NCBI GenBank assembly: GCA_964035545.1
Contig: OZ037765.1
Span: forward strand, 34,237,504-34,301,503
Length of the DNA: 64,000 nt
From: Bugula neritina
Taxonomy: Eukaryota; Bryozoa; Gymnolaemata; Cheilostomatida; Bugulidae
Reading direction: 5' to 3'
Shown here: piece by piece, positions 26,001 through 52,680 of the stretch
Numbering within the stretch: the stretch's first letter is position 1
How the letters are laid out: each line of letters opens with the position of its first letter
Notes under the pieces: model-generated
The model's database searches: none
What the model saw: only the letters and a program-made list of their open reading frames with translations
What the model was told of the DNA's origin: nothing
Made by a program: the position numbers and the translations under genes

Positions 26001-28771
26001 GTACTACCCTGAGTATGACTTTCTGTCAAGTCTTTGATGTTTTTGTCTACTTGCTCAAATTGTCTAGCCATATTTATGGCAACCTCTTCAGTTAGGTCTT
26101 CAACATTCATTTTCTGCATTTCACGACTGCAGTTAGTGTCTGTGATTCCTACTACAATTCTGTCTCGCATTTGCTCTGATCTATTGGAAAAATCACACCT
26201 ATCTGCTATGTCATTTAGAGACCTAACATACTGTTCAACAGTTTCTCCTTGTTGTTGGCAGCGCCTGAAGAAACGAGCTCGTTCATAAATCACGTACTTA
26301 CGTGGAGAAAAATACTTCTGAAAAGCTTCAGATACTTTTTGATAGTTTTTAACATCTTCATCCGACAGTGCTAAACCATTGAAAATACTCTCGCTTTTAT
26401 TTCCCATACAATAGAGAAAGCTGTCAACTTGCAACTGTTCTTCTTCTTGATTGAGCTTTGACAGTGTCCTATAACGACTCCAGCGAGCAAACCATTCAGC
26501 CCAGCCAGACGGATCAAAGTCGAACTCTTTAGGGGGGTTAAACTTAGCCATAGCGATAAAACACACTTTAACTTTGTAAATTTAAAATAGCTAATAACTT
26601 TAACTTGGTTTCAGCAACACGTACTGGCCACCATGTAATATTATGGTTGCGGATGAAGTGGATTATATTTTGTTAATGAACACGAGCAAGTATTGTATTT
26701 AACATGGCGATAACTTTATTCAAACTGCAGGTAACCTTGACCTAATAAAAACGTAACATTATAGCGAGTACATTATAATACAACACTTATATTAATATCA
26801 CAATACCATTTAACAATTACTGGTTAGTGAATTACATATATAATTAAATGAATTAAAATAAACATATGATAAGCAGATGTGAATTACTACTACAGTATTA
26901 GAATAAGAATACCAATACAATTATGAATTATTATTATTAATAATACAAAATTATATTAAAATAATAGGCTAATAATAATACTACACTTTATATAATGACA
27001 ATGATTATCATTATGATTATATTATTATTATTGATATTAATAATTAATTTAATACTAAAATATTAATTAACATAATACTAATACTTATACTTATACTAAG
27101 TTTAATAGTAATAGTAATACTAATAGACAATAGACATAGTAATAGAACTAGTAGCACTAAGTTTAATAGTTATACTAATAGTATTACATTTACTATTAGT
27201 ATTAATATTAGTATTAGTAATATAATTATAATTATAATAAATGTAATTCAATACCTAAAGTTAAAATGATATCGTAATCTATAAGTTAATATATAATTAT
27301 CACTATAAGTATAAGTATATTAATTATTATTTATATTATTAATATTAATTAAACGCTATTAGTATTAGTATTACTATTAGTATTAGTAAAAGTGATACTA
27401 TTACTATTAGTATTACAGCATTACTATTACTATTGAGTATTACTATTACTATTAGTATTACTATTAGTATTAGTATTACTATTATTAATATTTCTATTAA
27501 TATTATTATTTATTAAATTTAATCGTTAATATGATTTAGATTATTATTTTAATCGACAATTATTTAGTTTAAAAATGCTAATAATAATTTATAAGCAGAT
27601 TGAGCTTACCCATCTCTAGCTTTATTTGTTATATTGGAAAGTCGAAGTGAGAATTTTAGGTTCAAGCAAAAAGATATAAGCGGTTCAGTTGAAGGGGTGT
27701 ACTTGTAGAGTTGAAGATATCACGTTGGTTGTAAGGGGTGAAATAGACTAAGTACTTAACACGTTGCCGAGGTTTTCTTAATGCAAGATTATTTTAATTT
27801 TAGAGTTGTGTCATTTTTTAACTAAAACCTATGCTTCGTGCATACACAAAAGTATTACGCAGCGATTACTAAAAAAATTGCTCGGTTAAGTACTTTTCCG
27901 CCGTTTTTGGAGAAATTTCCGCTTTTCCGTTTACGCAGTTTACAAAAACCGGTCAGATCAAGAGTTAAATAAAACTAAATTATTCTTATTCAATAATAAT
28001 ACTTTTATATAGTAGGTCAACTTACTACCTTTTCGTTATGTTACAGCATATCTTCACTGAAGAATCTTGAGGTATTGTATATACCAGGGAAAAACCTATC
28101 TGAAGGTCTACCTGACAATATATTCACATCCTTACTATCATTGAGCGAGTTGAACATGAGTAGCTGTAAACTGTCAACTCTACCAAACAGGTGTGTATTC
28201 TATTATACGTTATGAAGTTATCTGCACTATCTTTATTGAGTCAACTAGACTCTGTGTATATTATACGTCACAAGTCAATTATTGTATTCTATTCTATTAG
28301 ATATATGTACTCAGATAGAAATGGTATAACAACTTCTCACTTACTCCTCTAGTAAATTATTTTGCTGTGTAACAGTTTATATTGGCACCAGGTGTTATAA
28401 TTTTGCAATTATAGTGCGTGTGGGTCTCTTATTGTGCAACGAGATTACAAACTTTATCCTCGATGAATACCACGATTAATAGAATTGAATATAAGCTTTA
28501 TTTACAATATAATAATACATCCAGTATCCCAACTATCACAAACATCTATCTCTTACTACTCTGTTACTCTGACTGCAAAAACATGAGTCAGCTGCGCCGC
28601 TGGGGGTCTCACGTGATCCCCAGCTGATTGGCTGGGTTACACGTGGACAAAATGTACTACGCTGGCCACTACACTGCCCCCTCCAGCAGGAAGCCTACCT
28701 TCCTGTTAACATAAAAAAACAATTAGTATATTTCACAAATGAAAAAGGATGTACACTCTCAGGCCGACCGG

Positions 28772-32000: not shown

Positions 32001-35000
32001 CAAATGTAATTTGAAACGAACAATTATGTTGCTGCATTGTGTCTAAGGTATATTAGAGAGCAGAATTTGGTTTTACTAGCCTACCCCAACGGCATTCTAC
32101 AATGCAGCTTATATGCTGGCAGTTGTAATAAGTACTGTCAATAGCAAGGTTACTATCACTGCTAGCTCTGTGCAGTATGTAACCTCTTGAATAATTGCGC
32201 CAATTTTAAACTCTTGGAAGTTGGCCAAGTTATCATATCGCAGCCAGCCACCGGAGACAAAGCATCAGAGCTATTCATATAATATTATACTGATGCACTT
32301 GGTAGCAGAGTGGCTAATCTAATATAGTTCATAGTTCAACACCCTTTACTTTGGGAATACAGCCTCTTTTTTTAGGTTTACCTTACAAAGCATGAACATA
32401 TCTAAACTGATATTCTGATAATTTAGAGGTACATTTTGAAAACTAGGTTAATTGCACTTGTTTGCACAACAACAATAATAAAATAGATATTATGCAGTAT
32501 AATAAAAACACACATAATACTATATAATATATTATAATGATAATAATATAATGTTATAAGTACCATTACTGCATTTTATAAATCACATGGTTGCCAAAAA
32601 AATGTATCACAAATTTTGTAATTATACATCAAAAATAAAACTATAGCTAGGCAGCAGGTTAGAATAGAGTAAATTTTTAAAACATGAAATCATGATTTGA
32701 CTATTGTTTTATTTAGGCTAACCAACCTAGGAATACAAGATTGGGTTTTAGCTGACAGTTTATAACATTTAGCTTTTGAGCCAGCAGCACTGGCACTTGT
32801 GAAGTATAGGCAAAGTTAGTGAAGCGAGACTAACTAGCACTCAAATACAAGGCATATTGAGACGCAATAACAAATCAGGAGCGTATAAATTGAAAAGAAT
32901 GTGGAAGGGGGACTATGTTTTTCAACAAGCTATAACTTAAACATGAATTGGTTTTTGAAAAAAATAAAAAAGTATATTGGAGAACATAAGTTTCTTTATC
33001 TTTTCATATTTTTTTTGTTCCTGTGACATTCAACCTGTTCGAGCTATCAGTGGAACATTGTTCATATAGAACATAAAGCACCTGGCAAAGAGCCAGAAAA
33101 TGAAAAGTGTGACCTTAAACTAACTGTGTGGCTAGACGGTTCTGCTCACTTGCAAAACCAAATAAAAGAGGAGTGGTCCGTACGCAGCCGGAACCTTCTA
33201 CTGTATAGATAAGGTCTAAAGTGCTTCACTGACTTGATTACTGCCAACAGTTCCTGGCAGGTAGTGCAGTAATTTCGTTCAGTGGGTGAGAGAGACTTGC
33301 TGTAGTAGGCTACTGCTACTTCTCGGCCCTCCTGCACTTGTGACAGCACAGCGCCAACATTCTGGTCACTGGCGTCGGTATCAAGTATGTACTCCAGAGC
33401 GGGGTCTGGGTAGGCCAGGATAGGTGCCTCCAGCAGGCGACCCTTGAGGCAGTCGAACGCCCTCTGTTCGACTGAAGTCCACTGCCATGTTACTCCCTTT
33501 GCGGTGAGCCGATTTAACGGCTGTGCCACCCCCGCAAAGTCTGGTATATATTGCCTGTAATACCCCACCAGTCCCAGGAAAGCCCGGAGCCCAATCAAAT
33601 CCTGGGGGGTAACACACTTTTCTACAGCCCGTACTTTTTTATGATCGGTCGCCACGCCATGGCGGCTGACGACGTGCCCCAGGTAGTTCACCTTCGGCTG
33701 CAATAGAGCGCACTTGGAGGGTTTGAGTTTCAGACCGGCATCTCTGAGTCGTTCGAAAACCTCCCGCAGACGACTGATGTGTGTCTGAAAGTCTGGGGAG
33801 ATCACTATGATGTCATCGAGGTATATTAGCAGCGTCTTCCAGTGGAGCCCACTGAGGACCTGTTCAATGAGTATCTGGAAGGTGGCGGGTGCGGAGGTCA
33901 ACCCAAAGGGCAGCACCTTCCACTTCCACAGCCCGTCCCGTGTGATGAACGCTGCCTTTTCCTGGGCGTCGGGACTCAGAGGGACCTGCCAGTAGCTGCT
34001 CAGCAAGTCTAATGTAATAAAGTACTTGCTGCCGGCCAAGGCGTCCAGAGATTCATCAATCCGGGGTAAAGGATAGGCGTTCTGTATGGTTACGCTATTT
34101 AGTTTGCGGTAATCCACACAGAACCACCAACTGCCGTCTATGTGCTGGTTCTATGAGGCTGCGGTCCAAAAGATCCCGGACTTGTCGGCTGACCTCCTTT
34201 TCCGGTCCCAACCTCCTCGTGGGTTGCCGGATAGGGACAGTACCCGCAGTCAGCGGTATCTCATGACGGACCGCCTTAGTCAGGCCCACGTCATGGTCTC
34301 CACTGCTGAACACGTCAATGTACTCATGCAGCAACTTAGCCATAGCCGGCGCTCCCCCTTGCTCGTGCAACCATCACAGGCCATCTCGTACAACTCCTGG
34401 ACGTGTGGTGGGACGGTCCCCGCCCTTTGGACGGGCGCTGTCGGGGACCTTCCGTCGCGTCTCCGAGCAACAGTCCTATATCTTCCTCCTGGACAGAATG
34501 AAAGCGGCATAGTACAGACCCTGACGGTAGCTTTACCGCCTCCGAGAAGGGATTGACACACTGCACCAAGATCTCTCCTCGTTCAGGCAGCCGATTGAGG
34601 CTGCTGGCGAGCTGGATTTTCTCGTGCGCGCCTTCTAACACCCCTAGCCCACAGATTCGGCCGTTGTTCACTCTGCATTGAATTGTAGCCTGGTATTTCA
34701 CAGTTCCGTACTACCTGCACACCTCCCACTAGGTGACGACCAGACTTGTCGACACAGGTGAACTCCTTGCCGGCCATCAGTATGGCAGACTTGCTGAAGT
34801 CGATGCGGCACCCGTTTCGTTTCAAGAATGGCATCCCTAGTATAGCATCCTCTTCTAGTTGGCTGATGGCAAAGGTTTCCTGGATCACCTGGTCGCGGAC
34901 GCGTCCAGTCAGTTTTATGATACTGTAGAAGGGAATGCACGAGCCATCGGTCAGTGTGCCATATTCCCCGGTATATGGTGCTAGCTCCCTTTTCTCCTTG

Positions 35001-38000
35001 GGACAAAAGCATCAAAGACACGACGGCTGAGGAGGTTCATGGCACACCCGGAGTCTAGCAGGAAAGTGACGGGCTTTCCGGTCGCTTTTCCTACTAAGAA
35101 ATAGCTGTCTCCGCGCGGTTGTACCCTTACTCCCCCTGCGTGCTCAATCCCAGCCGGGTAGGGCCGTGCTCGTCCGGCCCCCGGTTTGCGTGGCCTGCGG
35201 TGACAAGGAGTTCGTCTCGGAGGCGTGACCTGTTCCCCTCCGATGTCCGGATGGACCTCGCCAGCCGTTTTTACCTCTGGTAGCCGGTCGAAGCGGTTAG
35301 TGAGTGGCAGGGTAAACGGGTCCGGTCGCCACACTGGTCGACTGATCCAATGAGGTGCCTGCCACTCGTGAGGGGCATGACGCAATGTCCGTACGGATGA
35401 CCTGCATTTTCCGCCTCTGGAATCCTTCATTTTCGGCCCGCGGGGTTTGAAGGTATCTGCGGGCTGTGAGAGTTTAACCCCTTTCCAGACTGTAGGAGAT
35501 GTCCGTGTTCGCCCATTTCCAACACAAGGCAGTTGGCCTTGGAGTCGCTACCCTCGGCCTCAAAGGTCCTTGAGTGGGCTCTGTTGGGTTGGCATGGGCT
35601 GAGACTGCCACCAACTTTTCCAGCAACTTTTCCGGTCAACCTCCGCCCTTAGGGGAGAGATGGTAGTGGCAGCAACTACTTAAATAGGAGTGTCTGGTCC
35701 AGGTTCCACGGTGATTTGTGGGCCCAGTGTAGTTGTTTGGCCAAGAGATAGGCCTCACCTTCGTGCAGGGCATCCTCTATTGTGGTCACCCTTCTTGCTT
35801 GAAGCTGGTGGTGGAGACTCAAGTCATTGAGGGACTGCACGAAGGCGTCATAAGTGTAACGCTTCCGGTGTACTTCCGGCAAGTCGCTATTCGCGATCTG
35901 TGCCAGTCTCTTCACCGTGGTAGCATGGTCTTGGAGGGGGATGCGCACTTGCTCACCTTCCATGTGTTGAGCTGTTCTTTCTGCCATGGTGTATTCTATT
36001 GTTGTCTAGATCTTTGCATTGCCACAAGTCAGAAGATCCCACCGCTGCCACCACTGTTATAATTTTGCAATTATAGTGCAAATGGGTATCTAATTGTGCA
36101 ACGAGATTACAGTCATCCTCGATGAATACCACGATTAATAGAATTGAATATAAGCTTTATTTACAATATAACAATACATCCAGTATCCCAACTATCACAA
36201 ACATCTATCACAAACATCTATCTCTTACTACTCTATTACTCTGACTGGTACTAACTACAAAAACATGAGTCAGGCGGCTCTCTGCGCCGCTGGGGGTCTC
36301 ACGTGACTCTCAGCTAATTGGCTGAGTTACACGTGGACGAAATACACTACGCTGGCCACTACAAAGGTATAAAATTTGTTATAATATAAAATTATATCCA
36401 TATAAGTTAGATACTCTCTTTTAGCTGAGTGTAATGTGAAGCTATTATACATTTCTCTTTCTCTTTGAAATAACCCAAGTTTTAGTAGCAACTGCTGTAT
36501 TGTTTATCTGACTCTTAGTGGTCAGATCAAGAATTAAATAAAACTAAATTATTCTTATTCAATAATAATACTTTTATATAGTAGGTCAACTTACTACCTT
36601 TTCGTTATGTTACAGCATATCTTCACTGGAGAATCTTGAGGTATTGAATATATCATGTAATAACCTATCTGAAGGTTTACCTGACAATATATTCACATCC
36701 TTGCTATCATTGAGAGAGTTGTACATGAGGTACTGTGGACTGTCAACTCTACCAAACAGGTGTGTATTATATTATAGTGTAGAATAATACTGTAATAAAT
36801 ACAATATATAAACATATTATTAAATAATTGTGTAGAAGCTTCTAATCTTTTGTGATGTACATAAATTGACTTGTATGAACTAATTACATTATATAAATCA
36901 TTATAGACAATATATGTGATGTCATGTCTTTACTATTCTATTCTATCAGATGTACTCAGCAAGACATGGTGTGACAACTTGGAACTTTTTACTCTGATAA
37001 ATATTGGTATATAAAGTTGCTATAATATTATGAAATGTTCATAGGTGACCTCTTATGATACTGTTGAGTAGAATGTACAGTATATAGTTCAATTACCTTT
37101 GATGATTTTATATCTGTTTATTTTATGTTACAGCATATCTTCACTGAAGAATCTTGAGGTATTGAATATATCAGGGAATAACCTATCTGAAGGTTTACCT
37201 GACAATATATTCACATCCTTGCTATCATTGAGAGAGTTGTACATGAGTCACTGTGGACTGTCAACTCTACCAAACAGGTGTGTATTATATTATAGTGTAG
37301 AATAATACTGTAATAAATACAATATATGAACATATGATTAAATAATTGTGTAGAAGCTTCTAATCTTTTGTGATGTACATAAATTGACTTGTATCAACTA
37401 ATTACACTATATAAATCATTATACATAATATATGTGATGTCATGTCTTTACTGTTCTATTCTATCAGATGTACTCAGCAAGACATGGTGTGATAACTTGG
37501 AACTTTTTACTCTGATAAATATTGGTATATAAAGTTGCTATAACATTATGAAATGCTCATAGGTGACCTCTTATGATACTGTTGAGTAGAATGTACAGTA
37601 TATAGTTCAATTACCTTTCATGATTTTCTACCTGCATGTTATGTTACAGCATATCTTCACTGAAGACTCTTGAGGGATTGAATATATCAAATAATAACCT
37701 ATCTGAAGGTTTACCTGACAATATATTCACATCCTTACTATCATTGAGAGAGTTGTACATGACGAACTGTAAACTGTCAACTCTACCAAACAGGTGTGTA
37801 TTATATTATAGTGTAGAATGATACTGTAATATATAAAATATATAAACATAAGATCAATATAATTGTGTAGAAACCTATGGTAGAAACTTAAGACACACAG
37901 GATAGTTAAGGGCAACCTTTTAGCTGCAACTGTCTTGCTGAGGTTTGCATTGTAATCATATAAAAATTCAGTGCCAGTAAAATAAAATCTCACCTAATTG

Positions 38001-41000
38001 TGCTAGAGTCAAAATTTAAAAACTATGTTGTAAATCTTCTTTTTCTCCAGTGCAACTTTTTTGGAAATTTCAATTTTCATTTTTTTTGCAAAGTTATAGA
38101 CAAAAACTGTCCAATTTTGGCCAATTTTGCCAAAAAAGCTGACTTTTCAGTGCCAGTAAAATATCTCAGCAGCAAAAGATGATATCTGAATAGAAATTGC
38201 ACTGCTGGAATCCTGCGATATTTCTCCAGTGCAGCTTTTTTTCTTTTTCCAATAACTCTGCTAGATTGCTCATAAATTGGTGATTTATACACTGAAAATG
38301 CCATATTTTTTCATGAGAAACTAGCAGCGCGCAGCACTTCACGCTTCAATGAGCACGTAGGGATGAGAAGATATTGGCGCGTACATATTAATTATAGGCT
38401 TGCTAGCTGGCAGGCTATAATGAAAAGCTCGCTTTGTGTTATGTTTATGTAGCACCCATAATGGAATGTTGATAGATAACGCAGCCCTAATGAAGGTTGC
38501 TGCTTATTGGTTGTAGTTTAATCTTAGGCTAAACAAATGCAAGTAGGCAAGACGCATGCCACCCGCAGAGCAAAATTATTCAAGAACCTGAACTACATTT
38601 TGAGAGAAATTTATGTTATTCTTAGTGAGGATGCCCTAACTATCCTGTGCATATTATTTTACCATAATCAGAGTGACTTATAATATTATTATAATTATGT
38701 CTATTATGAGATATATTATAATGTTATACTGAGATATATCATAATGTTATACTGAGATATATTATAATGTTATACGGAGATATATTATAATATTATTATA
38801 CTGAGATATAATATTATAATATTATACTGAGATATATTATAATATTATACTGAGATATAATATAATGTTATACTGAGGTATATTATAATGTTACACTGAG
38901 ATATATTGTAATGTTATACTGAGATATAATCTACTGTTATACTGAGATATAATATAATGTTATACTGAGATATAATATAATATTATACTGAGATATATTA
39001 TAATGTTATACTGAGGTATATTATAATGTTATACTGAGATATACTATAATGTTATGCTGAGTTATATTATAATATTATACTGAGATATATTATATAATAC
39101 TATACTGAGATACAATATAATGTTATACTCAGATATATTATAATGTTATACTGAGATATATTGTAATGTTGTACTGAGATATATTATAATGTCATACTGA
39201 GATATATTATAATGTTATACTGAGATATATTATAATGTTGTAATGATATATATTATAAAATTATACTGAGATATATTATAATGTTATACTGAGATATATT
39301 ATTATAATAGTAGTCAATCCACAGTTACTGTGTGATGCAATGCATCGTTTGCCTGCTCCAATTTGTATCAAACACCAGGGAGTGTAACTCCTAACAGCTA
39401 TAAAATACAATTACTAAACTACAAAAATTGTCGAGAATTTTATATATTTACTACAGTGGTATTATCTTACAACGTATATTATGGAATTTTAATATTGATA
39501 TGTTTATACAAAAGCTTTTTTAAAACAACAATTGTATTTTTGTCAGCATACAGATTCTACAGAAGTTAAAGCTACTGGACATATCGTCAAGTAACTTCAC
39601 CAATTTACCATCTCCTGTGTACACATTGAGTAGTCTGCAAGAACTGAATATATCCTTCAATTCCTCCCTGACATCCTTAGATCCTGAGATACTACAGCTA
39701 ACTCAACTTCGTTCACTGGATGTTAGACATTGTGATGCTCTCACCTCTCCTCCACCAGAAGTATGTGAGAGAGGAGAAGATGTTGTGAGACAATACTACA
39801 CAGACTTGGCTAAAGGTGCTGGTAGAAGTCTTCCATTTGCTACTATAGCTGTGCTGGGTAACACTATGGCTGGGAAGACCAGTCTGATCAGAACATTACA
39901 GAATGCTGACAGAAAGAGAGTTCTGACCAACAGAGGGCCAGATGCTGTGAGAGATGAGACAACAAAGGTGTTTAATGTTGAAGAGGTGGAGGTGGATGGT
40001 ACAGTACTCCGTGTCATTGATATGGGAGGCCAGGAGGTCTACCATATCACCTATCAACTGACACTGAAACAGAACTGTATTCCAGTCATAGTAGTCAACA
40101 TGGAACAGTATGATGAGATTTCAAATAAATCAACACACAGAGAAGCTGTTAGAAGATTAGCCTTTGATTACATGTCTCACCTCTACCTGGCTAACCCAAC
40201 TCTGGGTGCTCCAAAACTTATCTTCACACATAAAGATAAGTTTCAAACTGCAGAGTTTCAGAAGCTTCGAAAGAACTTTCTAGATACTTCAAATCAACTG
40301 TGTGAGAAGATGATTAGCGAAGAGAAAGTATTGGGTGGAGAATTTGCTCAAATCAAACATTTTAGTGAATCAACTGAAGGAGTCTTTTCTGGTGAGGACA
40401 TTTATGAGGTGGGGGAAGATGATCAGTATGAAGTGTTTGACCTGATCAAGGAGTCTCTTCTTCAAAGCAGTCAACATTTCGTGAAACCATTACCTTTGGT
40501 CTGGGAGGAAGTAAATGAAAAAGTGCTGTCTTTTTCCTCTGTGTACAGCACTTTTGATGAAATACTGAAGTACGTGCAAACCGAACTTCAACAAATTGAG
40601 TCAAGTCAGCTGGACATAATCCTCACATACATGCATGACTGCGGCAAAGTCTTGTGGTATAAAGATATCAAGTCTCTCGGGCTATACATATTCCACAAGA
40701 TTTCAGAAGTTACCAAACTTCTCTGTGTCCTGTATCATCATGATCCTAACATCTGGCAGAGTAGAGTTAACAAGTTCCAGCTGTGCTATTCACAGGATGG
40801 GATGCCTGTTGAGAAGCAGGACTTTGAGGAATCTGTTAATCATTTCACAAACACTGGTTTGATGATGCAATCTCTTCTTGTCTATTTGATTCAAAATGAA
40901 ACAGTATTCCACAGTTCTGAGAATGTTGAAGTTGCTATCTGCTTGCTCAAGACATTCCGTTTGCTGCATGGTCCAATACATAGCAAGTCTGAAGACCCAT

Positions 41001-44000
41001 GGTTCATTGTACCTCAGTTTGCTAAGAACTACTACAGCACTTCTTACTTACCACCCAAAGACATGCTGCTTCATGTTGAGACACAATTCAATGGTCTAGC
41101 CCTGCCACACTATGTCTACCACCAAATGACAGTTGGCTTGTTGGAGTTGTTTCCCGGTGACTGTCCCAGGATAAAAGTGAGAAGAAATGGCGCCAATGTC
41201 TATCAAGATGGTATCTACACACAGCTGGTACACGACTACAAATCTAGAAAAATGTCACTCTACGTATCATCTAATGCTGCCAACATCAGCAGAATGTGGG
41301 AGAGACTCATCACCAACAACAACAACATCCTTAAACATGTTCTAAAAACTTGGCCAGCAAGTAGAGCTGTCACTACATGCTACTGTGCTCACTGTCTTCT
41401 GCTAGGACTTTCTTGTCCTAAGAAGGTGCAAAGACCTCCATGGTGTCTTCGTTCTTTACAACATTCTACACCAAGTTCCAGACTGTGTAGTGGAACTTCA
41501 ACAACTCTGTGTGGTGATGAGGAGATCCCAAGTGCTCTGCTCTACCCATGTATGTTTATTTGCATTATGGTGCGGTGCCTGTAAAATTATATTTTACTGC
41601 AATTCACCACATGTGTGCATTTATTTGGAAAGGAATTATTCATTGATATAACTAGGATAATAGTGTGATTTCACGACACCCGACTGTATTTACAAGCAAT
41701 TCATTGTTTCAGGTGAACCACTGTCTGAACGAGAAGCTGATAAGTTGGAGAAGTTTGTGAAGGAACTGGATGTTCGAAGAGCTCAAGAAAGATCAGCTCA
41801 TTCTGGTGAATACAAAGTGACCAGTTTTTACAAACTTGTGTTCTTTAAAAGTTTTACTTTATTGAAAGATCTTCTCACAAGAAATTCCTGCATTGCATCT
41901 GAATACCAAACTGCTAGCTATCATTTATTATGTTTTTTACTTATTCCTTTTGTAGCTAAGTATTGTAGTCGGTTTATACTTTATAGCCGCCGACAGTAGC
42001 CAATCAGATCTCCTGACCACCGCAATAACAGCCAATGACGATCTCAGTGATCTCTCTGATGATGATGAGAATCTGTACCCTGATGGAAAGGAAGTTGAAG
42101 ATATGAAGTTTATAAGACTCAGACTGAATCCCACCAGTAACCCAAAGATAGGACAGCTGTTCTCAAACACTGACAAGGTGATCACTTCTAATGTCTATGT
42201 GCTTTATTCTTGCCAGTTGTTTATTTCAGCAGTAACAAATATTTCTCTGTTACATCCAGGTGTTTACTATGACTAGAAAAAGAGGAAGAGCTCTGATAAT
42301 AAACAACATGAACTTTGATAAGAGACCAAATTTGTGTAGGAAAGGTTCAGATGTAGATGTTGAGAATATGTCTGCCATGTTGAAATCTCTCAAGTTTGAT
42401 GTCGTGACACACACAGACCTGAAGGCTGAGGTATGTTTTGCTGCTGCTTTACTTATAAAAATGGAACTTTTTGTTAGTTTAAAAAAGCATCCATATACAG
42501 TATTTTACCATCCGATACTTTCTAGGAAATGCTGTCTGCTGTTCAATATGAGGTGGAAAAAGAGGAACACGAAGATCTGGGATGTCATGTGTTGGTTATC
42601 ATGACTCATGGAGGGCTGAACAATCACATCTATGGTACAGATCTGAAACGAGTCAAACTAACAGATGTGTATGACCTTCTGACCCCTTTGAACTTCCCAA
42701 GAATGGCTGGCAAACCAAAGGTTGTTATACTGGAAGTCTGTAGTGGAGGTAATCAGTCTATACAACATTTGTGGTTACTTCAGAGTTGTGTTCTCTTGAC
42801 TGTTAGTAAATGATTAAGTGTGTCTATATTGCTGTGTATTTATGCTATTCACTAATTTATATGTGGGTATTTAAGACTAAAGCTGATAACTGCTGAAGTA
42901 GCGTAGGGTCAAGTGTGACGTGACGTGCTAGAAAACCCGTTTAGGCCAAAAAAAAGTTTTTATGCGTCTAACATGCTGAGAGAGAATTCCGGCAAGCTTG
43001 TGCGTGTTTGATCTAATTGGCTTGTTATAATTTAGTGAGCACACTGTTTTTTATCTTAATTCAAAGTTTAGCTTTTAGCGAACTGAATTAAAACAGTTTC
43101 ATATATATCAAAAGTCGATGACGTAGAACAAATGTCTGAAGGTGAGCAGTAAAGTTCAAAGCTAATATCATTAGCTAATAAATTTCTGCACTGGCAACGC
43201 ACACATTGTGGCCCTACGCTAGAGTCTTCATAGCTTTATGAAATAGAGTACATAAGTACATAAGTACATAACGTGACAAATACTAAGCATGCAACCTAAC
43301 TTTCCAAGTGCTACTACCTAACTGTGCTCTGCTGATGCACTCTGCTAATGATCTTGCATCATTAGCTCTATCCCAAGCATTAGCTCTATCTCAAGCATTA
43401 GCTCCATCCCAAAGCATTAGCTCTATTCCAAGCATTAGCTCCATCCCAAAGCATTAGCTCTATTCCAAGCATTAGCTCCAGCTAGTGATGCACTCTGCTA
43501 ATGACCTCTTCGATTTTCCACAGATCGAGATAGCGCAACAATGTATTAGGTATTAGCTGAGTAGCAGAGTTAGCGTAGGAGTTGTCCTTTCACCACAATA
43601 TACCTAATTTCAGAGTTATCTATATGTTTTTCTATTTGACATTATGTATTTATACTCATCATTCCAAATAAATATAAAACTATGTGATCTGTATTACAGA
43701 GAGAAGTGATTATGGCCAAAGAGGTATAGACAGATTTGATATCGGAGAATCACCGAAGGAGGGGGAGAGTATCTCACCTCCACTTGCTAAAGTTCCTGGA
43801 GACAAAGATGCTGAGGCTATGAATAGACTGAACTATGATGACCTGCTAGTAGTGAAATCTAGCATGGAGTGTAAGTAAAGCACATGTAATAGAGTATTAG
43901 GTTACACCGATGCCATACATACACTGGTGTTATTAATAATTGTAGGATAGTTCACATTATTGACTCTACTTGTAGCATTCATAGCAAAGGTTCACCCTGT

Positions 44001-44348
44001 GTATGGATCTCTAATGATTAGAGCTCTTGTATCTTCCATGTATAAACATGCCTGTCACCATGACCTCTACACTATATTCAAACAGGTGAGTATATTGTTA
44101 CTATGTTAGAGGCTTTTGGAGGCGTGTCATAAATAGGTTATTTAGAATAATCTGGTACAGAATAGTCAGATTTCACTGTTGAGTTGCTAAACATTCTTCA
44201 GGTACAGACTAAAGTGAGAAAAGTCTGCTTAGATAAAAATCTAGAGAGTGGAGGACAGCTGGTTGTAGTCTGGGATACTCTCACTCATATGAGAAAACTT
44301 TACCTGTTTCCTGGGTTTAATGGCTGCAAAAGAGAAGATGACTCTTAG
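10892..44348 (+). CDS. Receptor B: LRR-Roc-COR-caspase protein (complete locus)
   Basis: Exons read from splice signals and phase: leader 10892-11020 (or 12517-12646); N-cap 14445-14673; LRR exons 14894-15037, 17976-18119, 18568-18711, 28047-28190, 36616-36759, 37134-37277, 37650-37793; Roc-COR exon 39547-41549; then 41713-41805, 41987-42177, 42260-42430, 42526-42748, 43700-43870, 43976-44085, 44202-44348 (TAG 44346-44348). All joins keep frame. The product would have about 14 LRRs in the array plus several before Roc, a Roc GTPase, COR, an acidic linker and a caspase p20-p10. No membrane span or kinase is visible. A cytosolic sensor with a protease output is inferred. Introns hold over 20 kb of nested transposons. 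The start codon is unresolved. Confidence 0.75.
11031..12344. other. DNA between the two leader-exon copies, with a tRNA-like SINE
   Basis: Mostly AT-rich DNA without a gene. Around 11438-11505 there is a tRNA-like stretch: an A-box-like TGGTGTAATGG and a B-box-like GGTTCTAATCC about 35 bases later. It has weak acceptor pairing, so it is read as a SINE head or tRNA relic and not a working tRNA. Confidence 0.4.
12345..12656 (+). promoter_or_regulatory. Receptor B leader exon, copy ii
   Basis: A near-identical second copy of the 10738-11030 block, about 1.6 kb downstream. It lacks the E-box/ATATAAA segment, which is replaced by different sequence at about 12455-12490. The exon frame and GTAAGT donor (after 12646) are kept. 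It could be an alternative first exon or a dead duplicate. Confidence 0.5.
12657..14444. other. Receptor B intron upstream of the N-cap exon, with a GTGCCCC repeat
   Basis: Intronic DNA. About 13085-13640 is a dispersed element rich in TTGTGCCCC motifs. Its end, with CCTATGACCGTTGTGCCCC, is found inverted at 63955-64000. About 13740-14060 aligns with 56715-57010 upstream of the receptor C N-cap exon. A (TATTA)n tract runs over about 14380-14418. Confidence 0.5.
14445..14673 (+). CDS. Receptor B N-cap exon before the LRR array
   Basis: A 229-bp exon entered in phase 1 and left in phase 2, bounded by CTTGTAG and a GTACTA donor. It encodes [18 protein letters not shown], then a segment ending HLTHLR...NWTR, consistent with an N-terminal cap and a first LRR strand. 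Receptor C has the equivalent at 57948-58179 with one extra codon, so this exon is under coding constraint. Confidence 0.72.
15399..17960 (+). mobile_element. CACAG-ended DNA transposon, copy 1 (non-autonomous)
   Basis: Terminal inverted repeats CACAGTTAGTTTAAGGTCA at 15399 and TGACCTTAAACCAACTGTG ending at 17960. The flanks are TA on both sides, and related LRR introns (for example near 37630) show the uninterrupted site CCTGTATGTTATG or CCTGCATGTTATG. The 2.56-kb interior has no transposase. It includes a tRNA-like segment (about 16982-17050: TGGTCTAGAGG A-box-like and GGTTCAACCC B-box-like) and a 67-codon open frame (16597-16800) also present in the inverted copy at 30548-33128. Superfamily uncertain; a 2-bp TA duplication would fit Tc1/mariner-like insertion. 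Confidence 0.75.
19240..20330. other. Left arm of the MULE-like element, no gene
   Basis: AT-rich DNA without open frames of note. Nothing resembling a MULE transposase or its zinc-binding motifs is visible on either strand. Confidence 0.4.
20440..20590 (+). repeat. Sequence shared with the NOL11 3' flanks, inside the MULE-like element
   Basis: Aligns in inverse orientation with 9301-9430 and 53570-53690. The best block contains GTCAACTTCAAAGGACTTGC, and matching continues through TTTGTAACAGTGAG. Two overlapping frames are open here (20341-20526 and 20459-20668). Conservation does not clearly favour either. Confidence 0.6.
20841..21974 (-). pseudogene. Ubiquitin-specific protease (USP) gene fragment inside the MULE-like element
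   Basis: Exon-like blocks on the minus strand: 21885-21974 encodes [18 protein letters not shown], the USP Cys box with the catalytic Cys; 21453-21534 encodes [15 protein letters not shown], the QQD-type box; about 21232-21307 encodes KCHFCNAE, a CxxC knuckle, then NLLPVPL; about 21118-21162 is a short block; 20841-20994 encodes [13 protein letters not shown] and [10 protein letters not shown], the segment before the His box. USPs (peptidase C19) remove ubiquitin from proteins. The His box (GHY) is not found and some joins break frame or phase, so it is treated as a captured, probably incomplete gene. Splice signals are kept at several blocks, so capture was at DNA level, not by reverse transcription. 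Confidence 0.65.
22401..22552 (-). repeat. Gypsy 1 3' LTR
   Basis: 152 bp, same sequence as 26634-26785. The purine tract lies just inside it at about 22553-22565 on the complementary strand. Confidence 0.93.
22733..26566 (-). CDS. Gypsy 1 Gag-Pol polyprotein, intact single frame
   Basis: 1277 codons without interruption. Gag occupies about residues 1-265 and ends in two CX2CX4HX4C zinc knuckles (about 229-242 and 249-262). The aspartic protease motif DTGA is at 311. Reverse transcriptase covers about 440-640 with LDANSGFYQ near 525 and the catalytic box as MDD (586-588) instead of YxDD. RNase H follows (HTDAS, then TDHKP). Integrase has an HHCC zinc region (HSGHLG to CESC) and a DDE core ([17 protein letters not shown]). 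A second Met six codons in (MAKFNPP) may be the true start. Gag and Pol are fused without a frameshift. Function is reverse transcription and integration of its own RNA. Confidence 0.93.
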   Translation of the reverse strand: MCFIAMAKFNPPKEFDFDPSGWAEWFARWSRYRTLSKLNQEEEQLQVDSFLYCMGNKSESIFNGLALSDEDVKNYQKVSEAFQKYFSPRKYVIYERARFFRRCQQQGETVEQYVRSLNDIADRCDFSNRSEQMRDRIVVGITDTNCSREMQKMNVEDLTEEVAINMARQFEQVDKNIKDLTESHTQGSTSSTSVDAVSKFSSSGSHTNKSHKHSSKSNSTRQTNNSTPCGRCGYVNHTRGTCPAKDCKCKRCGKLGHYAKMCKSKPASQVQQVEEEVDSVFLGEIAESNVGVWTKTIVVDKLDFPVQFKLDTGADVSILPQRLCSNVPLVKTKKQFLGPGNTKIPVVGCFNAKLSVGSITHTETIYVVNQTKALLSRNACVKLGLISCKCDIDSVTNVTDNSVFCREFPKLFSGLGKMNHTVGIELRSECKPFAINTPRSVPYPLLSSVKQELSDMVAKGVISPVSEPTDWCAPMVVVPKANRKVRICVDYTELNKVVRREVHPMAHVESSLAKLGNGNFFTVLDANSGFYQIPLSPKAKMLTTFLSPFGRFAFNRLPFGLSSSPELYCKIVSQVLEGLDGVVCHMDDVCIWGKSQEEHDSRVRAVLRRMVDAGMTLNVEKCKFSRSSIRFLGHVISSSGIRANPEAIQGIESFATPTCVKDVRSFLGMANQLSKFSTRLGELSAPLRELLHKNTPWIWDVAQKQAFCDIKKELQRSVELAPYSPHRETVIHTDASQCSIGAALFQYQDNGELRLVCAASRALSETEKRYATIEQEALAVVWACEKFRDYIVGLRVVIKTDHKPLVPLLNDIELDKNPARIQRFRMRLMRFQYHMEHISGKKNVIADALSRSVGPISEADVMFMEEVELFAVSALHNTATSPRLKELKVQQENDEVLSRVLQYVRSGWPTYLPSHEILLRPYFECRSRLSTIEDVLVLDSRIVIPHAERLAVLDKIHSGHLGITKCRSRAAQSVWWPNMSQQIAEMVKKCESCRKESNVQQYSLLRSEFPSRPWEKLGSDLFYFDSKWFLLVVDYYSRFIEVALLEDLTSSKVILHLKSIFARHGVPEVLISDNGVQYASEEFKSFARKFGFTHVTSSPKHPQGNGAAERAVQTVKNILKKGQDPYLGLMAYRSSPLENGVSPAELLMGRKLRTTVPSLPSVLAPKQPNVERVKQKEAHARAQSKDTFDLRHRVVVPPSLSPGDRVHVRDLNRDAEVVSTSPGRPRSIVVKSTNGVPLRRNVTNLVPLQTTELSDDNNVARKSSFGRTIKPRQILDL
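26634..26785 (-). repeat. Gypsy 1 5' LTR
   Basis: 152 bp, adjacent to the primer-binding site at 26633 reading leftward on the minus strand. Confidence 0.93.
28393..28673 (-). repeat. Gypsy 2 3' LTR
   Basis: 281 bp matching 36055-36363. It has lost a short internal duplication (CACAAACATCTAT) that the other LTR carries. Confidence 0.9.
28680..29031. repeat. Duplicated block with two long (AT)n arrays
   Basis: A unit of about 165 bp occurs twice: CCTTCCTGTTAACATAAAAA, then TCAGGCCGACCGGCC, then pure (AT)n at about 28774-28857 and 28937-29028. It lies in the untranslated 3' end of gypsy 2. The number of AT units may be unreliable in assembly. Confidence 0.85.
29032..30012 (-). pseudogene. Gypsy 2 integrase remnant and 3' region
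   Basis: At 29749-30012 (minus) the integrase zinc region is readable (HKQAHAG, then a tail CEIFQVSK in which the second cysteine of the usual CxxC is lost). The DDE core expected next is absent; a proline/arginine-rich frame (29439-29783) follows instead. The large plus-strand frames here are antisense to these relics. Confidence 0.65.
30013..30547 (-). pseudogene. Gypsy 2 RNase H end and connecting region
   Basis: Minus-strand frame at 30480-30547 encodes [18 protein letters not shown], the end of a gypsy RNase H domain, resuming directly after the inserted CACAG transposon. Stops and frame changes follow. Confidence 0.7.
30548..33128 (-). mobile_element. CACAG-ended DNA transposon, copy 2, nested in gypsy 2
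   Basis: An inverted copy of 15399-17960, about 2.58 kb, with ends CACAGTTAGTTTAAGGTCA (30548) and its complement (ending 33128), flanked by TG on both sides. The interior matches copy 1 along its length, including the tRNA-like stretch (about 31461-31530) and the 67-codon frame (31727-31930 minus). It splits the gypsy RNase H between ...RLA and ...ARWLE, with a few extra bases at one junction. Confidence 0.85.
33146..34370 (-). pseudogene. Gypsy 2 reverse transcriptase / RNase H remnant
   Basis: The 323-codon frame (33146-34117) holds a gypsy RT from [19 protein letters not shown], the palm motif LLIYLDD, the thumb, and RNase H ([10 protein letters not shown], then LRTDHSS). The upstream part of Pol continues in other frames (to about 34370), so at least one frameshift lies near 34110. 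Relics of a polymerase that copied the element RNA. Confidence 0.88.
34371..36054 (-). pseudogene. Gypsy 2 gag and protease remnants
   Basis: Minus-strand frames at 34583-35021 (a retropepsin-like continuation, [14 protein letters not shown]), 34981-35430 ([12 protein letters not shown], the protease active-site region with DSG), and 35676-35987 (Gag-like, [13 protein letters not shown]). They are split by stops and frameshifts, so no intact Gag or protease remains. Confidence 0.7.
36055..36363 (-). repeat. Gypsy 2 5' LTR
   Basis: 309 bp; the longer of the two LTRs, next to the primer-binding site. Confidence 0.9.
37896..38649. mobile_element. 754-bp MITE with CACAGGATAGTT ends
   Basis: Inverted ends CACAGGATAGTTAAGGGCA and TGCCCTAACTATCCTGTG with CA on both flanks. 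An inverted relative is at 45213-45828. The CACAG/CTGTG termini resemble those of the 2.6-kb elements, suggesting one family. It lies in the intron between the last LRR exon and the Roc exon. Confidence 0.75.
38690..39315. repeat. 23-bp satellite-like array in the pre-Roc intron
   Basis: About 27 imperfect copies of a unit containing ACTGAGATATATTATAATG. The same repeat appears after the last LRR exon of receptor C at 63800-63955, so it marks the equivalent intron there. Confidence 0.9.
39547..41549 (+). CDS. Roc-COR exon of receptor B
   Basis: A single 2003-bp exon entered after GTCAG with a C that completes the preceding AG, as in all LRR exons. It starts with further LRRs ([29 protein letters not shown]). 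The Roc GTPase has P-loop [10 protein letters not shown] (nt 39857-39886), switch II DMGGQE (40019-40036) and FTHKDK (about 40222-40240) as the G4 equivalent. COR follows ([10 protein letters not shown]). The exon ends with a cysteine cluster [13 protein letters not shown] and leaves in phase 1. Roc-COR modules are GTP-dependent dimerisation switches, as in LRRK and DAPK1 proteins. No kinase follows; the next exons lead to a caspase. Confidence 0.92.
41713..44348 (+). CDS. Linker and caspase exons of receptor B
   Basis: Seven exons in matching phase. The first two encode a charged linker ([15 protein letters not shown]). The p20 starts [12 protein letters not shown] with a conserved [11 protein letters not shown] segment that supplies the S1-pocket arginine in caspases. 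Catalytic His is in MTHGG (codon 42607-42609) and Cys in EVCSGG (codon 42739-42741), where most caspases have QACRG or QACQG. The p10 shows YGSLMIRAL instead of the usual GSW motif and ends KLYLFPGF before the stop. Asp-rich linker stretches could be processing sites. Active-site His and Cys are both present, so activity is possible, but substrate preference may differ. Confidence 0.88.
42901..43219. mobile_element. Small MITE with GCGTAGGG ends, TA target
   Basis: GCGTAGGGTCA at 42901 and TGGCCCTACGC ending at 43219, flanked by TA on both sides (42899-42900 and 43220-43221). It lies in the intron between p20 and p10 of receptor B. The receptor A intron lacks it. Confidence 0.55.
43330..43500. 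repeat. Tandem AGCATTAGCTC repeats
   Basis: Six to seven imperfect copies of CCAAGCATTAGCTCTAT-type units in the same receptor B intron, partly in a two-unit higher-order pattern. Confidence 0.75.
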
Positions 44349-46936: not shown

Positions 46937-48325
46937 TATCTACTCTATATGTATACTATACTATATCTACTCTATACACTATACTACATCTACTCTATAC
47001 ACTATACTATATCTACTCTATACACTATACTATATCTACTCTATACACTATACTATATCTACTCTATACACTATACTATATCTACTCTATACACTATACT
47101 ATATCTATACTCTATACACTATACTATATCTACTCTATACACTATACTATATCTACTCTATACACTATACTATATCTACTCTATACACTATACTATATCT
47201 ACTCTATACACTATACTATATCTACTCTATACACTATACTATATCTACTCTATACACTATACTATATCTATACTCTATACACTATACTATATCTACTCTA
47301 TACACTATACTATATCTACTCTATACACTATACTATATCAACTCTATACACTATACTATATCTACTCTATACACTATACTATATCTACTCTATACACTAT
47401 ACTATATCTATACTCTATACACTATACTATATCTACTCTATACACTATACTATATCTACTCTATACACTATACTATATCTACTCTATACACTATACTATA
47501 TCTACTCTATACACTATACTATATCTACTCTATACTATACTATAAATACTCTATACACTATACTATATCTACTCTATACACTATACTATATCTACTCTAT
47601 ATACTATACTATATCTACTCTATATACTATACTATATCTACTCTGTACACTATACTATATCTACTCTATACACTATACTATATCTATACTCTATACACTA
47701 TACTATATCTACTCTATACACTATACTATATCTACTCTATACACTATACTATATCTATACTCTATACACCATACTATATCTACTCTATACACTATACTAT
47801 ATCTACTCTATACACTACATTATATCTACTCTATACTATACTATATCTACTCTGTACACTATACTATATCTACTCTATACACTATACTATATCTATACTC
47901 TATACACTATACTATATCTATACTCTATACACCATACTATATCTACTCTATACACTATACTATATCTACTCTATACACTACATTATATCTACTCTATACT
48001 ATACTATATCTACTCTGTACACTATACTATATCTACTCTATACACTATACTATATCTACTCTATACATTATACTATATCTACTCTATACACTATACTATA
48101 TCTACTCTATACACTATACTATATCTACTCTATACACTATACTATATCTACTCTATACACTGTACTATATCTACTCTATACATTATACTATATCTACTCT
48201 ATACATTATACTATATCTATACTCTATACACGATACTATATCTACTCTATATACTATACTACATCTACTCTATACACTATACTATATCTATACTCTATAC
48301 ACGATACTGTATTAACTCTATACTA
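46937..48325. repeat. 21-bp minisatellite, long array (about 1.4 kb)
   Basis: Roughly 65 copies of a unit containing TATCTACTCTATACACTA, with occasional 2-3 base insertions and single substitutions. Because the unit is a multiple of three without stops in some frames, frames of up to 529 codons run through it. They are artefacts. Confidence 0.93.
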
Positions 48326-48882
48326 TATATCGAGGGCTACTGAAAGGGAATATTTCATGGCGAGGGCCACATTGTAAAATTTAACTTGGGCTGGAGGCCA
48401 CAGCATCTGTAATTTAAAATAACTCTATTCCAAATGCCTGTGAATCATTACACAATGAAGTCCCAATAATTAGGTACTGCAAGCTGTATGTTTTTAGCAT
48501 ATATGAAAATGGGGCATTTAAAAGGCGGTTGTCCACTCGAATTCATATACCTGTGCAAATAGTTTTATCTGTTATGCCTTTGAAGGCCACATAAATGTAG
48601 GGGAGGGGGAGGGGAGGCACATCCATGCCACCTGTTGGACAGCTCTGCTTGAGGCAACGAGCAATAAATATTTTAAGAGTTGTATTCCTTTAAAGTGAAA
48701 ATTTACTTTGCTTCGGATATGGTTTTCAACAAAAATTATAACATTTGTAATATATACAAAAATGTGTTTCCATAAAAAAAATTTATGAGTAAATTTGACT
48801 ATAAAAACTGAATTTGTGAATAATTGTAGTACGCGAACGACAGAATAAAACCATTACATGTGCAGTTCCGGCGTACAAAGTC
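48326..48882 (+). promoter_or_regulatory. NOL11 copy 2 upstream region
   Basis: From about 48470 the sequence aligns with 3894-4303. The GCAGTTCCGGC block just before the ATG is kept. The segment 48326-48470 (GAGGGCTACTGAAAGGG) is not in the copy 1 flank and may be a small repeat fragment. Confidence 0.35.
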
Positions 48883-51032
48883 ATGGCTACTACCAGTGAA
48901 TCAACCGCAACTGCAATAAATGATACTTGGGCCATTGCTTCCTTTTCAAAGGCGAATGAATTTTTGGGATTCTCTTCATTTGACACTAGCAATGTTATTT
49001 TGACAAATAGGCAGTCTATGTCAATATATAAGGTAACATATTTCATTTTCTGTAATGCTAATTTGAGGAATTTTTATAAACATAATCATAATAAAATTAA
49101 TATTGTTGTACTAGTCAAGTAGTAGTACAGTACTACTAGACACTAGTATAAGTATAATTACAACCAGTAGTACTTATAGTAGTATTAGTACTACTACTAG
49201 TACTAGTAGTACTAATAGTACTACTACTAGTACTAGTACTAAACGCTTAAACAGTAACCAGTACCCGGTCCAGATGCAGCAGACGTTGTACTCAAGTTCA
49301 AGTTGTAGTAGTACTACTACTAGTACTATGGTAGACTGGTAGGACCTGTACTTTGACTTGCAGTAAAATTCATACTTATTACGTAGTTACACTTTGACTT
49401 TCAGTTTTTTGCTTTCAGTTTTAGTGTTCGTAGTACAACTTCTATTAAATTTTGTTTATTTCTAACAGTAGCTGACTAACTCTAGTAACTTAAACTGGTG
49501 TGAGTATATCTAAACTAAGATTGGTAAAAACACAACTTTAGTTAGTTACTGTAACACTAACTATTAGTTGGAGTCTACTTCATGACTTGTATTTGTACGA
49601 ATAGTGATAATCACAGTATGAATAACTCAATAACTATAAGCGAAGATAAGTTAAAGTGTTTTAGTAAAATTAAATAACAACTTACTCTTACTGACTAAAC
49701 ACTCGGTCAAAGTCATTCACGGTCGCTAAAAAGTGAATAGTGGTATAATAGTAAAGTCAATTCAACGTAGGGCTAATGCAGCTCTGAGTGACGCCGAGTC
49801 AAACAGTTATTAATTATTATGATAATCGATGTAAACAGCAGAAATTTTTTCAACTTGATTTTAAATTGACTAATTCGTAATAACTATAAGTCTTGGATTA
49901 AATCAGTTGATACTCGCGTTTTAATTAAGCCTCTCGGTGAATGGCACTGAGTCCTAACAAATATTTAAAGTGAATTTCAGTGATTACTATTGAGTATTGA
50001 AATGTGATGACACACATTTACTAACTTAGCTTTTAGTTACTTTAAAATTTATTTTATTCATACTCAGTTGTTGAGTAATTAGCATAAATCAACCAGTGTA
50101 GTTCAATTTAAAATCATACTCAATCACAATAGGCTTTATTTTTTTGCTAAACTAATTCTAAATGACCATAAAATTTATGCTATGATGAGTTGTTTGTATC
50201 GCTTTTAAAATGATCTTATAATTTTGTTATTGAGTTGAGGAAATAAATTTAGTTATTTCAGAGTTTCACCGGCCTGGATGAGTATTCTCTGCAGTACAGC
50301 CTCTTTCTCATATAAATCACTGTGGAATAAATTATTACTGAAAGTAATAATAACTTGACATGTGTTTATATGCTTCGTTCATGAGCGTATTTTTCTGTTT
50401 AGAATATTAATAAATACTAGAGTTTGAGTTGTGATGAACTTAGGTGAGTGATCAGCAGACAGTCTCAAGTTGTACTCTCAAATCAGAGAGCAGTTTCTGT
50501 CTGCCTGTGGTTTATGATCACGGAAGAAGAACATTATGTTGGTTTGGTTGAGAATATTGGGAAGAAGAGACTTTGTGTCTGGACAAATGAACTTTCTAAC
50601 TACAAGGACTGGAAGAAGAAACTGGTAAATCTCTCACTTTGAGTATTTCACGTGTTTTGTGATTTATAAGATAACATGTTTACAATAACACAATTTGTTG
50701 GTCATTTGGTGGAGTATATTTATAGCATTGGAAATGTTGGAGTGGTGAGAATAGAATATAGAGAATGATAACCTAATGATGATTGGTTTATAATACAAGT
50801 GTAACTGTTGTAGTTATCAACTGAGGTGACTGAACTGGTAGAAGTAGAGAAGACAGAACCACTGGTGGTCACATCTAATAACTGTGTGTGCTGGTTGTCT
50901 CATGTGGAGGACACTTCACTGTCTGTCCATCTGCTGCCTCCAGATCTGAGAGATGCTGACGTGGAGATTAGTCAGTTTAAAAGTTACAGTTGGAGTAATA
51001 GAACTGAGATTGTCTACATTGTGACTGTTGAT

Positions 51033-51420
51033 GTGAGTATCACAATGTGTCAGTGTGGTGTCACAATGTGTCAGTATGATGTCACAGTAGTCAGTATGGT
51101 GTCACGATGTGTCAGTTAGTATAATGTCACATGTGTCAGTTAGTATAATGTCACATGTGTCAGTATGGTGTCACATTAGTCAGTAAAGTTACAATGTGTC
51201 AGTGGAGTGTCACTGTGTATCAGTATGATGTCACAATAGTCAGTAAAGTGTCACAATGTATCAGTATGGTGTCACAGTAGAGTGTCACAGTAGAGTGTCA
51301 CAGTAGAGTGTCACAGTAGAGTGTCACAGCAGAGTGTCACAGTAGAGTGTCACAGTAGAGTGTCACAGTAGAGTGTCACAATAGAGTGTCACAGTAGAGT
51401 GTCACAGTAGAGTGTCACAG
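51033..51420. repeat. Tandem repeats in NOL11 copy 2 intron 3
   Basis: The same unit families as 6483-6830 (TGTCAGTATGATGTCACA, then CAGTAGAGTGTCA), with different number and order, showing independent repeat turnover after duplication. Confidence 0.85.
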
Positions 51421-52243
51421 TTGTTGACATGCATCATCATCATTGCTGTTGAAATATCTACAGTTTCTGTTGTTATTTCGGAGACGGCACCTTGTATAAA
51501 AGTTACAGTTCAACAACAAGTAGGTGTTTGGTAAGTCTACGCAAGTGTTTCTCAACTACACAGATGTGACATCAGTGTGTAGAGTTGTCCCTCATGCTGA
51601 GTCTAATTACATTGCTACTAGTGAGTTTGATATTATTGAATATATACTGTGTCTCTGTATGACGTCACCTTTACAATAACCAGTTTATCTGAAATACTCT
51701 ATACAGGTGGTAAGGGTGAGATACTATACTCTACCGGTACATCTGAAGAAGTTATTTCCTCTCTCAACTCAGAGTTTTCTACTCAGTGTGTCTCTCTTCA
51801 CCTACTAGACTCTGACCAGCTTCTCATTGCAACATCTCACAGCTCTACGAATACAGGCTAGTATAGTTTACCTTTTCTGAAGATGATTGTTCTAGTAGAG
51901 TAGTTTTACTGTAACTGTATGCCTCCTTTACTTGAATATGAGTAGATGTAAGCCAATCAGTGTAACTGTACTCATAGCACCTGTTTAGACGTGTCACAGT
52001 TGAAGTATGGTGACATATGCTGGTCTTGTAGGTGTCTTACTTATATTCAGTATCAAGTTCAGAACTACGAGGGTTCTAAAGAATCTAGACAGTGAGCTCT
52101 ACGGTGATAAACCTGTGACTCTTCTGCCTCCATACATACTGACTCACACGGAGAGCTCATTGCAGGCTCACTCGTATAAGTATAGCAAGTTGACACTAAG
52201 GAGCATGATGGGCAGTTCGAGACTGTCTGCTGATTCTGAGTTG

Positions 52244-52680
52244 GTGAGTCACCAGGTTATTCAGTGAGTTACCAGGTTATTATTCAGTGAGTTACCAGGT
52301 TATTCAGTGAGTTACCAGGTTATTCAGTGAGTTACCAGGTTATTCAGTGAGTTACCAGGTTGTTCAGTGAGTCACCAGGTTATTATTCAGTGAGTTACCA
52401 GGTTATTCAGTGAGTTACCAGGTTATTATTCAGTGAGTCACCAGGTTATTCAGTGAGTTACCAGGTTATTCAGTGAGTTACCAGGTTATTATTCAGTGAG
52501 TTACCAGGTTATTATTCAGTGAGTCACCAGGATATTCAGTGAGTTACCAGGTTATTCAGTGAGTTACCAGGTTATTCAGTGAGTGACCAGGTTATTCACT
52601 GAGTTACCAGGTTATTCAGTGAGTTACCAGGTTATTCAGTGAGTTACCAGGTTATTCAGTTAGTCACCAGGTTATTCAGT
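52244..52680. repeat. 20-bp minisatellite in NOL11 copy 2
   Basis: About twenty copies of GAGTTACCAGGTTATTCAGT, several with an extra ATT. Homologous to 7651-8056 and also beginning at the exon 6 donor. Confidence 0.9.

Follow-up and report, generated by a model that had tools for sequence, protein, structure and literature searches.

The gene at 39547-44348 on the + strand of the window, the 64-kb stretch of Bugula neritina DNA analysed here, joins LRRs, a Roc GTPase, COR and a caspase in one predicted chain. We put at about 0.6 the probability that this locus belongs to a large single-chain receptor family whose members, on sensing, would change the state of Roc-COR and so activate the fused protease. 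The family looks like an undescribed group of immune or cell-death receptors. Its modules are known ones, brought together in a new combination and on a large scale.

Eight + strand exons between 39547 and 44348 splice in frame into an LRR-Roc-COR-linker-caspase protein of 1035 residues, with an open frame, canonical splice sites and no lesion in the exons. The large first exon (39547-41549) encodes the last LRRs, the Roc GTPase, COR-A and COR-B, as assigned by Pfam and by fold. It is followed by a linker exon (41713-41805), which aligns with two bryozoan proteins (P0025 and P0031), and by an acidic linker exon (41987-42177; median dN/dS 0.17). The first part of the caspase p20 subunit (42260-42430), placed by Pfam and by alignment with CED-3, includes the S1-pocket Arg in CRKGSDVD, and the next exon (42526-42748) carries the catalytic His (MTHG) and Cys (EVCSG, with Glu at the usual Gln). 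The intersubunit linker and the start of p10 come next (43700-43870), then a p10 exon in which Val aligns with the usual S1 Arg (43976-44085), and finally the end of p10 with a TAG stop codon (44202-44348).

A Pfam search of the 1035 residues, proposed in the preliminary description for all three domains, recovered Roc (29.9 bits; cut-off 27) and Peptidase_C14 (6.6e-38, covering positions 1-212 of 233) and gave no match for COR. Because Pfam alone missed COR, we used fold comparison, and the region directly behind Roc has a confident fold that matches LRRK1/2 and the C. tepidum Roco protein. The caspase half aligns with CED-3 across both subunits and has both catalytic residues, although EVCSG stands where QACXG would be expected. 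At E 1e-3, Pfam matched neither CARD nor DED nor a death domain within the 1035 residues, the N-terminus beyond them lying outside this search, and it matched no NACHT or NB-ARC domain in the same residues, which contain Roc instead. In-frame splicing, Pfam and fold thus bear out the original description of one + strand exon series encoding LRRs, Roc, COR and a caspase with both catalytic residues, and of a sensor, a GTPase switch and a protease in one gene, with no adaptor domain (CARD, DED or death domain) at that threshold in that range. The term "initiator-type caspase" may fit in part: the profile, His and Cys are those of a caspase, but the replacements of Gln by Glu and of Arg by Val, and a Pfam search that found no CARD, DED or death-domain prodomain in the 1035 residues, set it apart from a textbook initiator caspase.

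Seven further LRR exons lie upstream on the + strand, at 14894-15037, 17976-18119, 18568-18711, 28047-28190, 36616-36759, 37134-37277 and 37650-37793. Each is 144 nt long with phase 2 at both ends, and they were assigned to the window gene by phase and homology; with them the gene model comes to 1371 residues up to the stop. Ahead of them is a predicted N-terminal cap exon (14428-14673, +; 246 nt), whose phase-2 donor fits the first LRR exon. It is conserved with window positions 57929-58198, ahead of the next receptor, and resembles, by eye only, the N-terminus of Watersipora P0025 and P0045; no start codon was found upstream of it. The introns hold two antisense retroelement open frames: a single open frame of 1282 residues at 22733-26581 (-), with gag, reverse transcriptase, RNase H and integrase, and a frame at 33146-34150 (-) with reverse transcriptase and RNase H. 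An Rfam search of the 64-kb window gave no matches.

The same arrangement recurs across this genome. At least 66 Roc-COR exons have at least 63% identity to the window exon, and 64 of them have no stop over the matched stretch, the other two carrying one; at least 134 catalytic caspase exons are listed. Because only part of the candidates were scored (66 of 150 for the Roc-COR exons and 150 of 338 in another profile search), these family counts are lower bounds. A same-strand caspase exon lies within 12 kb downstream of 65 of the 66 Roc-COR exons (median 1602 bases; 63 within 7.6 kb), a limit chosen with knowledge of one pair at 11.6 kb, and the 66th has its caspase exon at 15.4 kb. By contrast, of the three control directions, upstream on the same strand yielded a caspase exon for 1 of 66, and the two opposite-strand directions for none of the 66. 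A COR-A profile search for more distant members found the pair in 21 of 23, the direction controls applying to the 66 only, and loci L020-L022 add three pairs; a Roc-COR and caspase pair is therefore present at at least 89 loci, receptor A included. The P-loop, DMGGQE and THxD motifs were intact in all 20 loci read. A GT donor follows COR in 21 of 21 rows, which represent 20 distinct loci with receptor A entered twice. At the remaining borders tested, the sequence is AG or GT except in two cases, one in L009 (receptor A) and one in L028 (GC).

The loci are clustered, with 21 of the 66 at C1:32.5-35.1 Mb, where the window lies, and 29 at C6:2.5-6.3 Mb. The LRR exons of the next paralogue are already within the window (58449-63711, +), and its Roc-COR exon follows past the window end, at C1:34303709. 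Window positions 3885-8059 and 48474-52667, upstream of the LRR exons of neighbouring receptors, are 89% identical and have minisatellites in common, a likeness that probably reflects a fairly recent duplication. Among the 134 listed caspase exons, 48 have no paired Roc-COR exon, three of them from L020-L022. The remaining 45, about one third of the 134, have no Roc-COR exon upstream among the matches listed, and could be stand-alone caspases, caspases fused to a different kind of sensor, or the partners of Roc-COR exons that fall outside the lists.

Receptor A, an upstream paralogue represented in the window by the end of its COR exon, its linker and its class A caspase exons (1-3043, +), had been cited as a repeat of the arrangement that spoke against an accident of prediction. 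The arrangement is indeed no such accident, because 65 of 66 Roc-COR exons are paired against 1, 0 and 0 of 66 in the controls, but receptor A itself looks decayed. Its p10 exon contains an in-frame TGA (2756-2758), and the acceptor of its LRR-Roc exon reads TG for AG (L009 5965-5966), where the near-identical L010 has AG. Receptor A is probably a decayed gene, a pseudogene. We give hardly any credence to decayed repeats or an assembly artefact as an account of the whole family: the two lesions of receptor A and the two stop-bearing Roc-COR exons are what it would predict, whereas 64 of 66 exons are open, the coding sequence is under purifying selection and the window gene has no lesion in its exons. 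A prediction artefact was rejected on the 65 of 66 pairs, the 64 of 66 open frames and the purifying selection.

Only a little more probable, and still very improbable, is a pair of neighbouring genes, an LRR-Roc-COR gene followed by a separate caspase gene with its own promoter. The large Roc-COR exon is by itself a long open frame, running to a stop at 41584, so retention of the first intron could give a Roc-COR-only product, and Watersipora P0045 is modelled without a caspase. A Met also stands just ahead of the caspase core (VFTM), but Met is usual at such a place in caspases, which counts against two genes. The linker between the halves is conserved (dN/dS 0.17) and collinear with single annotated bryozoan proteins, and on this conservation, together with the GT donor after COR in every row and the same-strand pairs, the separate caspase gene was rejected.

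Selection was estimated by Nei-Gojobori counting over ten loci of class B, the class of the window gene, with seven and six loci for the p10 exons. Median dN/dS was 0.15 for Roc-COR, 0.17 for the linker, 0.17 and 0.18 for the p20 exons and 0.16 for both p10 exons, with single pairs reaching up to 0.80 (linker). For the catalytic exon, the ratio was 0.21 in class A and 0.33 in class C. These low values in Roc-COR and caspase alike indicate that both halves are maintained. The 15 LRR exons of the window gave a pN/pS of 1.40, uncorrected for multiple hits. The ratio was 2.39 in the five most variable columns against 0.84 elsewhere, from 15 short exons and with the hypervariable columns chosen from the same data. 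These columns fall mainly at the strand positions that usually make up the ligand face of LRRs. Judged by these ratios, the LRR exons diversify in the way that a recognition surface would.

The caspases read fall into class A (receptor A-like, mostly HACSG), class B (mostly EVCSG or ETCSG), class C (mainly in the C6 cluster) and one outlier. Trees were built for 18 loci, without L014 and L027, whose caspase exon lies outside the fetched stretch. In the Roc-COR tree, A loci L009, L010, L012 and L013 cluster with B loci L015 and L016 (100/100), whereas the class A caspases stand far apart in the caspase tree. A Roc-COR tree constrained to keep the five A loci in one clade was rejected (p-AU 0.0107), in a clade test that takes in L017, a long branch. 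From this conflict between the trees we infer that loci have swapped halves or undergone gene conversion with one another, and either half could have been the one affected. Long minisatellites with 23-base units lie between and inside the receptor genes, at 46955-48323 (about 59 copies) and 38707-39302 (about 26 copies), and are possible recombination sites.

Active sites were read in 78 of the 134 catalytic exons, after L009, a cut copy of receptor A, which is counted from the window, had been left out of 79 rows. The catalytic His is present in 77 of 78 exons, with Leu in one, and the catalytic Cys in 66; the other 12 have Ser (10), Ala (1) or Tyr (1). Two positions ahead of the Cys, where textbook caspases have Gln, 57 exons encode Glu, 13 His and 8 Gln, so that 70 of 78 have Glu or His there. 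The P1 Asp is bound in caspase-7 by Arg87, Gln184 and Arg233 (PMC4357240). Of these three residues, the window gene retains the first Arg, carries Glu instead of Gln, and has Val where the second Arg of CED-3 aligns. In a simple alignment of 15 loci, the second S1 position is Arg in 5 of 5 class A loci, 2 of 7 class B loci, 2 of 2 class C loci and the outlier; the class B loci that differ have Ile (3), Val (1) or Ser (1). The Ser-for-Cys members use two codon forms, AGC in eight and TCC in two, and have a pN/pS of 0.41 versus 0.34 for Cys members of the same class.

It should not be assumed that these proteins kill by cutting after Asp, because two of the three P1 side chains are replaced and some paralogues have no Cys. 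The changes from Gln to Glu and from Arg to Val argue against an ordinary caspase. Given the altered S1 residues and the Cys losses, plain cleavage after Asp is probably not what this caspase family does, and some members are likely to have no catalytic activity.

In protein searches, one of which scored the 7998 candidates sharing most words, all named-protein matches with E below 1e-100 came from Watersipora subatra and Bugula neritina. Over LRRs, Roc-COR, linker and caspase, the window protein aligns end to end with two Watersipora subatra proteins, P0025 (36% identity) and P0031 (33%). Watersipora P0049 has LRRs, Roc and a caspase, P0046 and P0120 have parts of the order, and P0054 is a short match at the E limit (2.9e-100); Bugula neritina P0047 has Roc-COR and part of the caspase. 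Thus, all or part of the domain order seen in the window gene is found in one predicted protein in P0025, P0031, P0049, P0046, P0120 and P0047. Unlike the window gene, these entries keep QAC where the site is included (P0025, P0031, P0049 and P0120 from Watersipora and P0047 from Bugula), and they are uncharacterised or auto-named. Roc and COR profile matches in P0025, P0031 and P0049 are below the Pfam cut-offs or absent, and the P-loop of P0031 seems degenerate by eye; GTP switching may therefore fail in some relatives. A long-query protein search returned Watersipora only, within length limits and a shared-word filter under which absence elsewhere is not implied. In a quick tree with several long branches and a three-row outgroup of Branchiostoma and cyanobacterial Roco proteins, the window family, the bryozoan proteins and metagenome frames formed one clade (SH-aLRT 100).

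The LRR-Roc-COR order and fold are common to the window gene, bacterial and archaeal Roco proteins, MFHAS1 and LRRK1/2, and some Watersipora relatives are auto-named as MFHAS1 homologues. LRRK proteins carry a kinase behind COR, where the window gene has its caspase. NLRs have NACHT or NB-ARC and recruit a caspase through death-fold adaptors, whereas Roc-COR and a fused caspase stand here; LRR sensor, nucleotide switch and caspase output would nonetheless follow in the same proposed sequence as in animal NLRs and inflammasome caspases. MFHAS1 has nothing behind COR, and placozoan ROCO proteins come with CARD and death domains (PMC4104024); TIR-ROCO proteins are described from Aplysia (PMC9334734).

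The preliminary description knew of no LRR-Roc-COR-caspase protein, and among the matches listed from the open-licence literature searched (titles and abstract starts), we found none in which Roc-COR is joined to a caspase, nor does the text consulted from the papers cited here describe such a fusion. The novelty is nevertheless somewhat reduced by two precedents. Amphioxus LRRs-caspase and TNFR-caspase hybrids, proposed as a direct link from recognition to apoptosis, also fuse a sensor part straight to a caspase, but the accessible text names no Roc-COR switch in them and they keep QACXG where the window gene has EVCSG (PMC2575513). Brown algal LRR-ROCO candidate immune receptors also form a large family with exon shuffling, diversifying selection and phase-2 LRR exons of one length, 72 bp there and 144 bp here, and the word caspase is absent from the text available (PMC11378527). 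A figure of that paper draws some forty animal ROCO domain combinations, and the caspase combination may be among them.

The receptor would consist of an N-terminal cap, phase-2 LRR cassettes, a Roc-COR GTPase switch, an acidic linker and a C-terminal caspase, and we assume that it is cytosolic. Ligand bound on the concave LRR face would change the nucleotide and dimer state of Roc-COR. This change would bring two fused caspase domains together, and proximity would drive proteolysis, bypassing any CARD, DED or death-domain adaptor. Such activation would probably end in cell death or inflammatory cleavage, whether in defence or on self/non-self contact, with a P1 preference that is probably not the classic Asp. 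Members without Cys may serve as dimer partners or brakes, as c-FLIP does. What the sequence supplies is the anatomy; the functional steps and the location are those that we infer. The case for an immune role draws only on family expansion, clustering and LRR diversification. The candidacy as an innate immune or cell-death receptor has gained from the genome-wide family, the diversifying LRRs and the end-to-end bryozoan relatives, and it stays a candidacy.

Two other readings compete with that of a sensing receptor that fires its own protease. The fused domain could be a protease with a re-tooled P1 pocket, or a pseudoprotease scaffold, signalling non-lethally through Roc-COR assemblies rather than acting as an Asp-cutting executioner, a reading that is unlikely but carries real weight. 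It would account for Glu or His in place of Gln before the Cys in 70 of 78 exons, for 12 losses of the Cys, for the change to Ser through both AGC and TCC at a pN/pS of 0.41 against 0.34 in same-class Cys members, and for Val in the window gene where CED-3 has the S1 Arg; in caspase-7, side chains at these positions hold the P1 Asp (PMC4357240). However, His is kept in 77 and Cys in 66 of the 78 exons, class A keeps the S1 Arg in all five loci read, and the Watersipora and Bugula proteins keep QAC. Distinctly less probable is a lineage-specific expansion serving development, tissue remodelling or endosymbiont management rather than defence. Colonial animals remodel tissue by cell death, which counts in favour of such a role, but the LRR exons have a pN/pS of 1.40 while the other tested exons are constrained, and 21 and 29 of the 66 loci in two big clusters with halves exchanged are the pattern of a recognition family.

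Beyond the receptor reading itself, we tentatively suggest, at rather less than even odds, that bryozoans possess an extensive modular receptor system, evolved in parallel with NLR inflammasomes. In it, hypervariable LRR cassettes, themselves shuffled, would be joined to a ROCO switch that would directly fire exchangeable fused proteases with rebuilt P1 pockets, and with pseudoproteases as brakes, in immunity or colony allorecognition. ROCO GTPases are known mainly from LRRK2 and Parkinson disease. If the receptor reading is true, they would also be immune switches wired directly to a protease, which would offer a simple readout of how Roc-COR transmits its signal. There would then be a GTPase-based counterpart to NLR inflammasomes, and for self/non-self recognition in colonial animals such as bryozoans there would be a concrete set of candidate genes to test. 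Catalytic, re-pocketed and Cys-less caspases on a closely related chassis make a ready comparison set for protease specificity.

Other observations were made in this genome. A search gave 44 innexin matches (best 9.2e-102); innexins are not known from sponges. Mitochondrial COX1 reads sensibly, as judged by eye, with AGR as Ser and ATA as Met (invertebrate code) but not with the sponge-type code. On these two observations a sponge origin of the genome was rejected. A COX1 copy of 433 bits lies inside a large contig (C6:11174072-11175412), compared with 435 bits for the copy on small contig C295; the C6 copy would be a nuclear mitochondrial insertion or an assembly join. Small contigs C17, C58, C65, C90, C99 and C196 hold other COX1 versions or strong Roc-profile matches, and are perhaps DNA of associated organisms.
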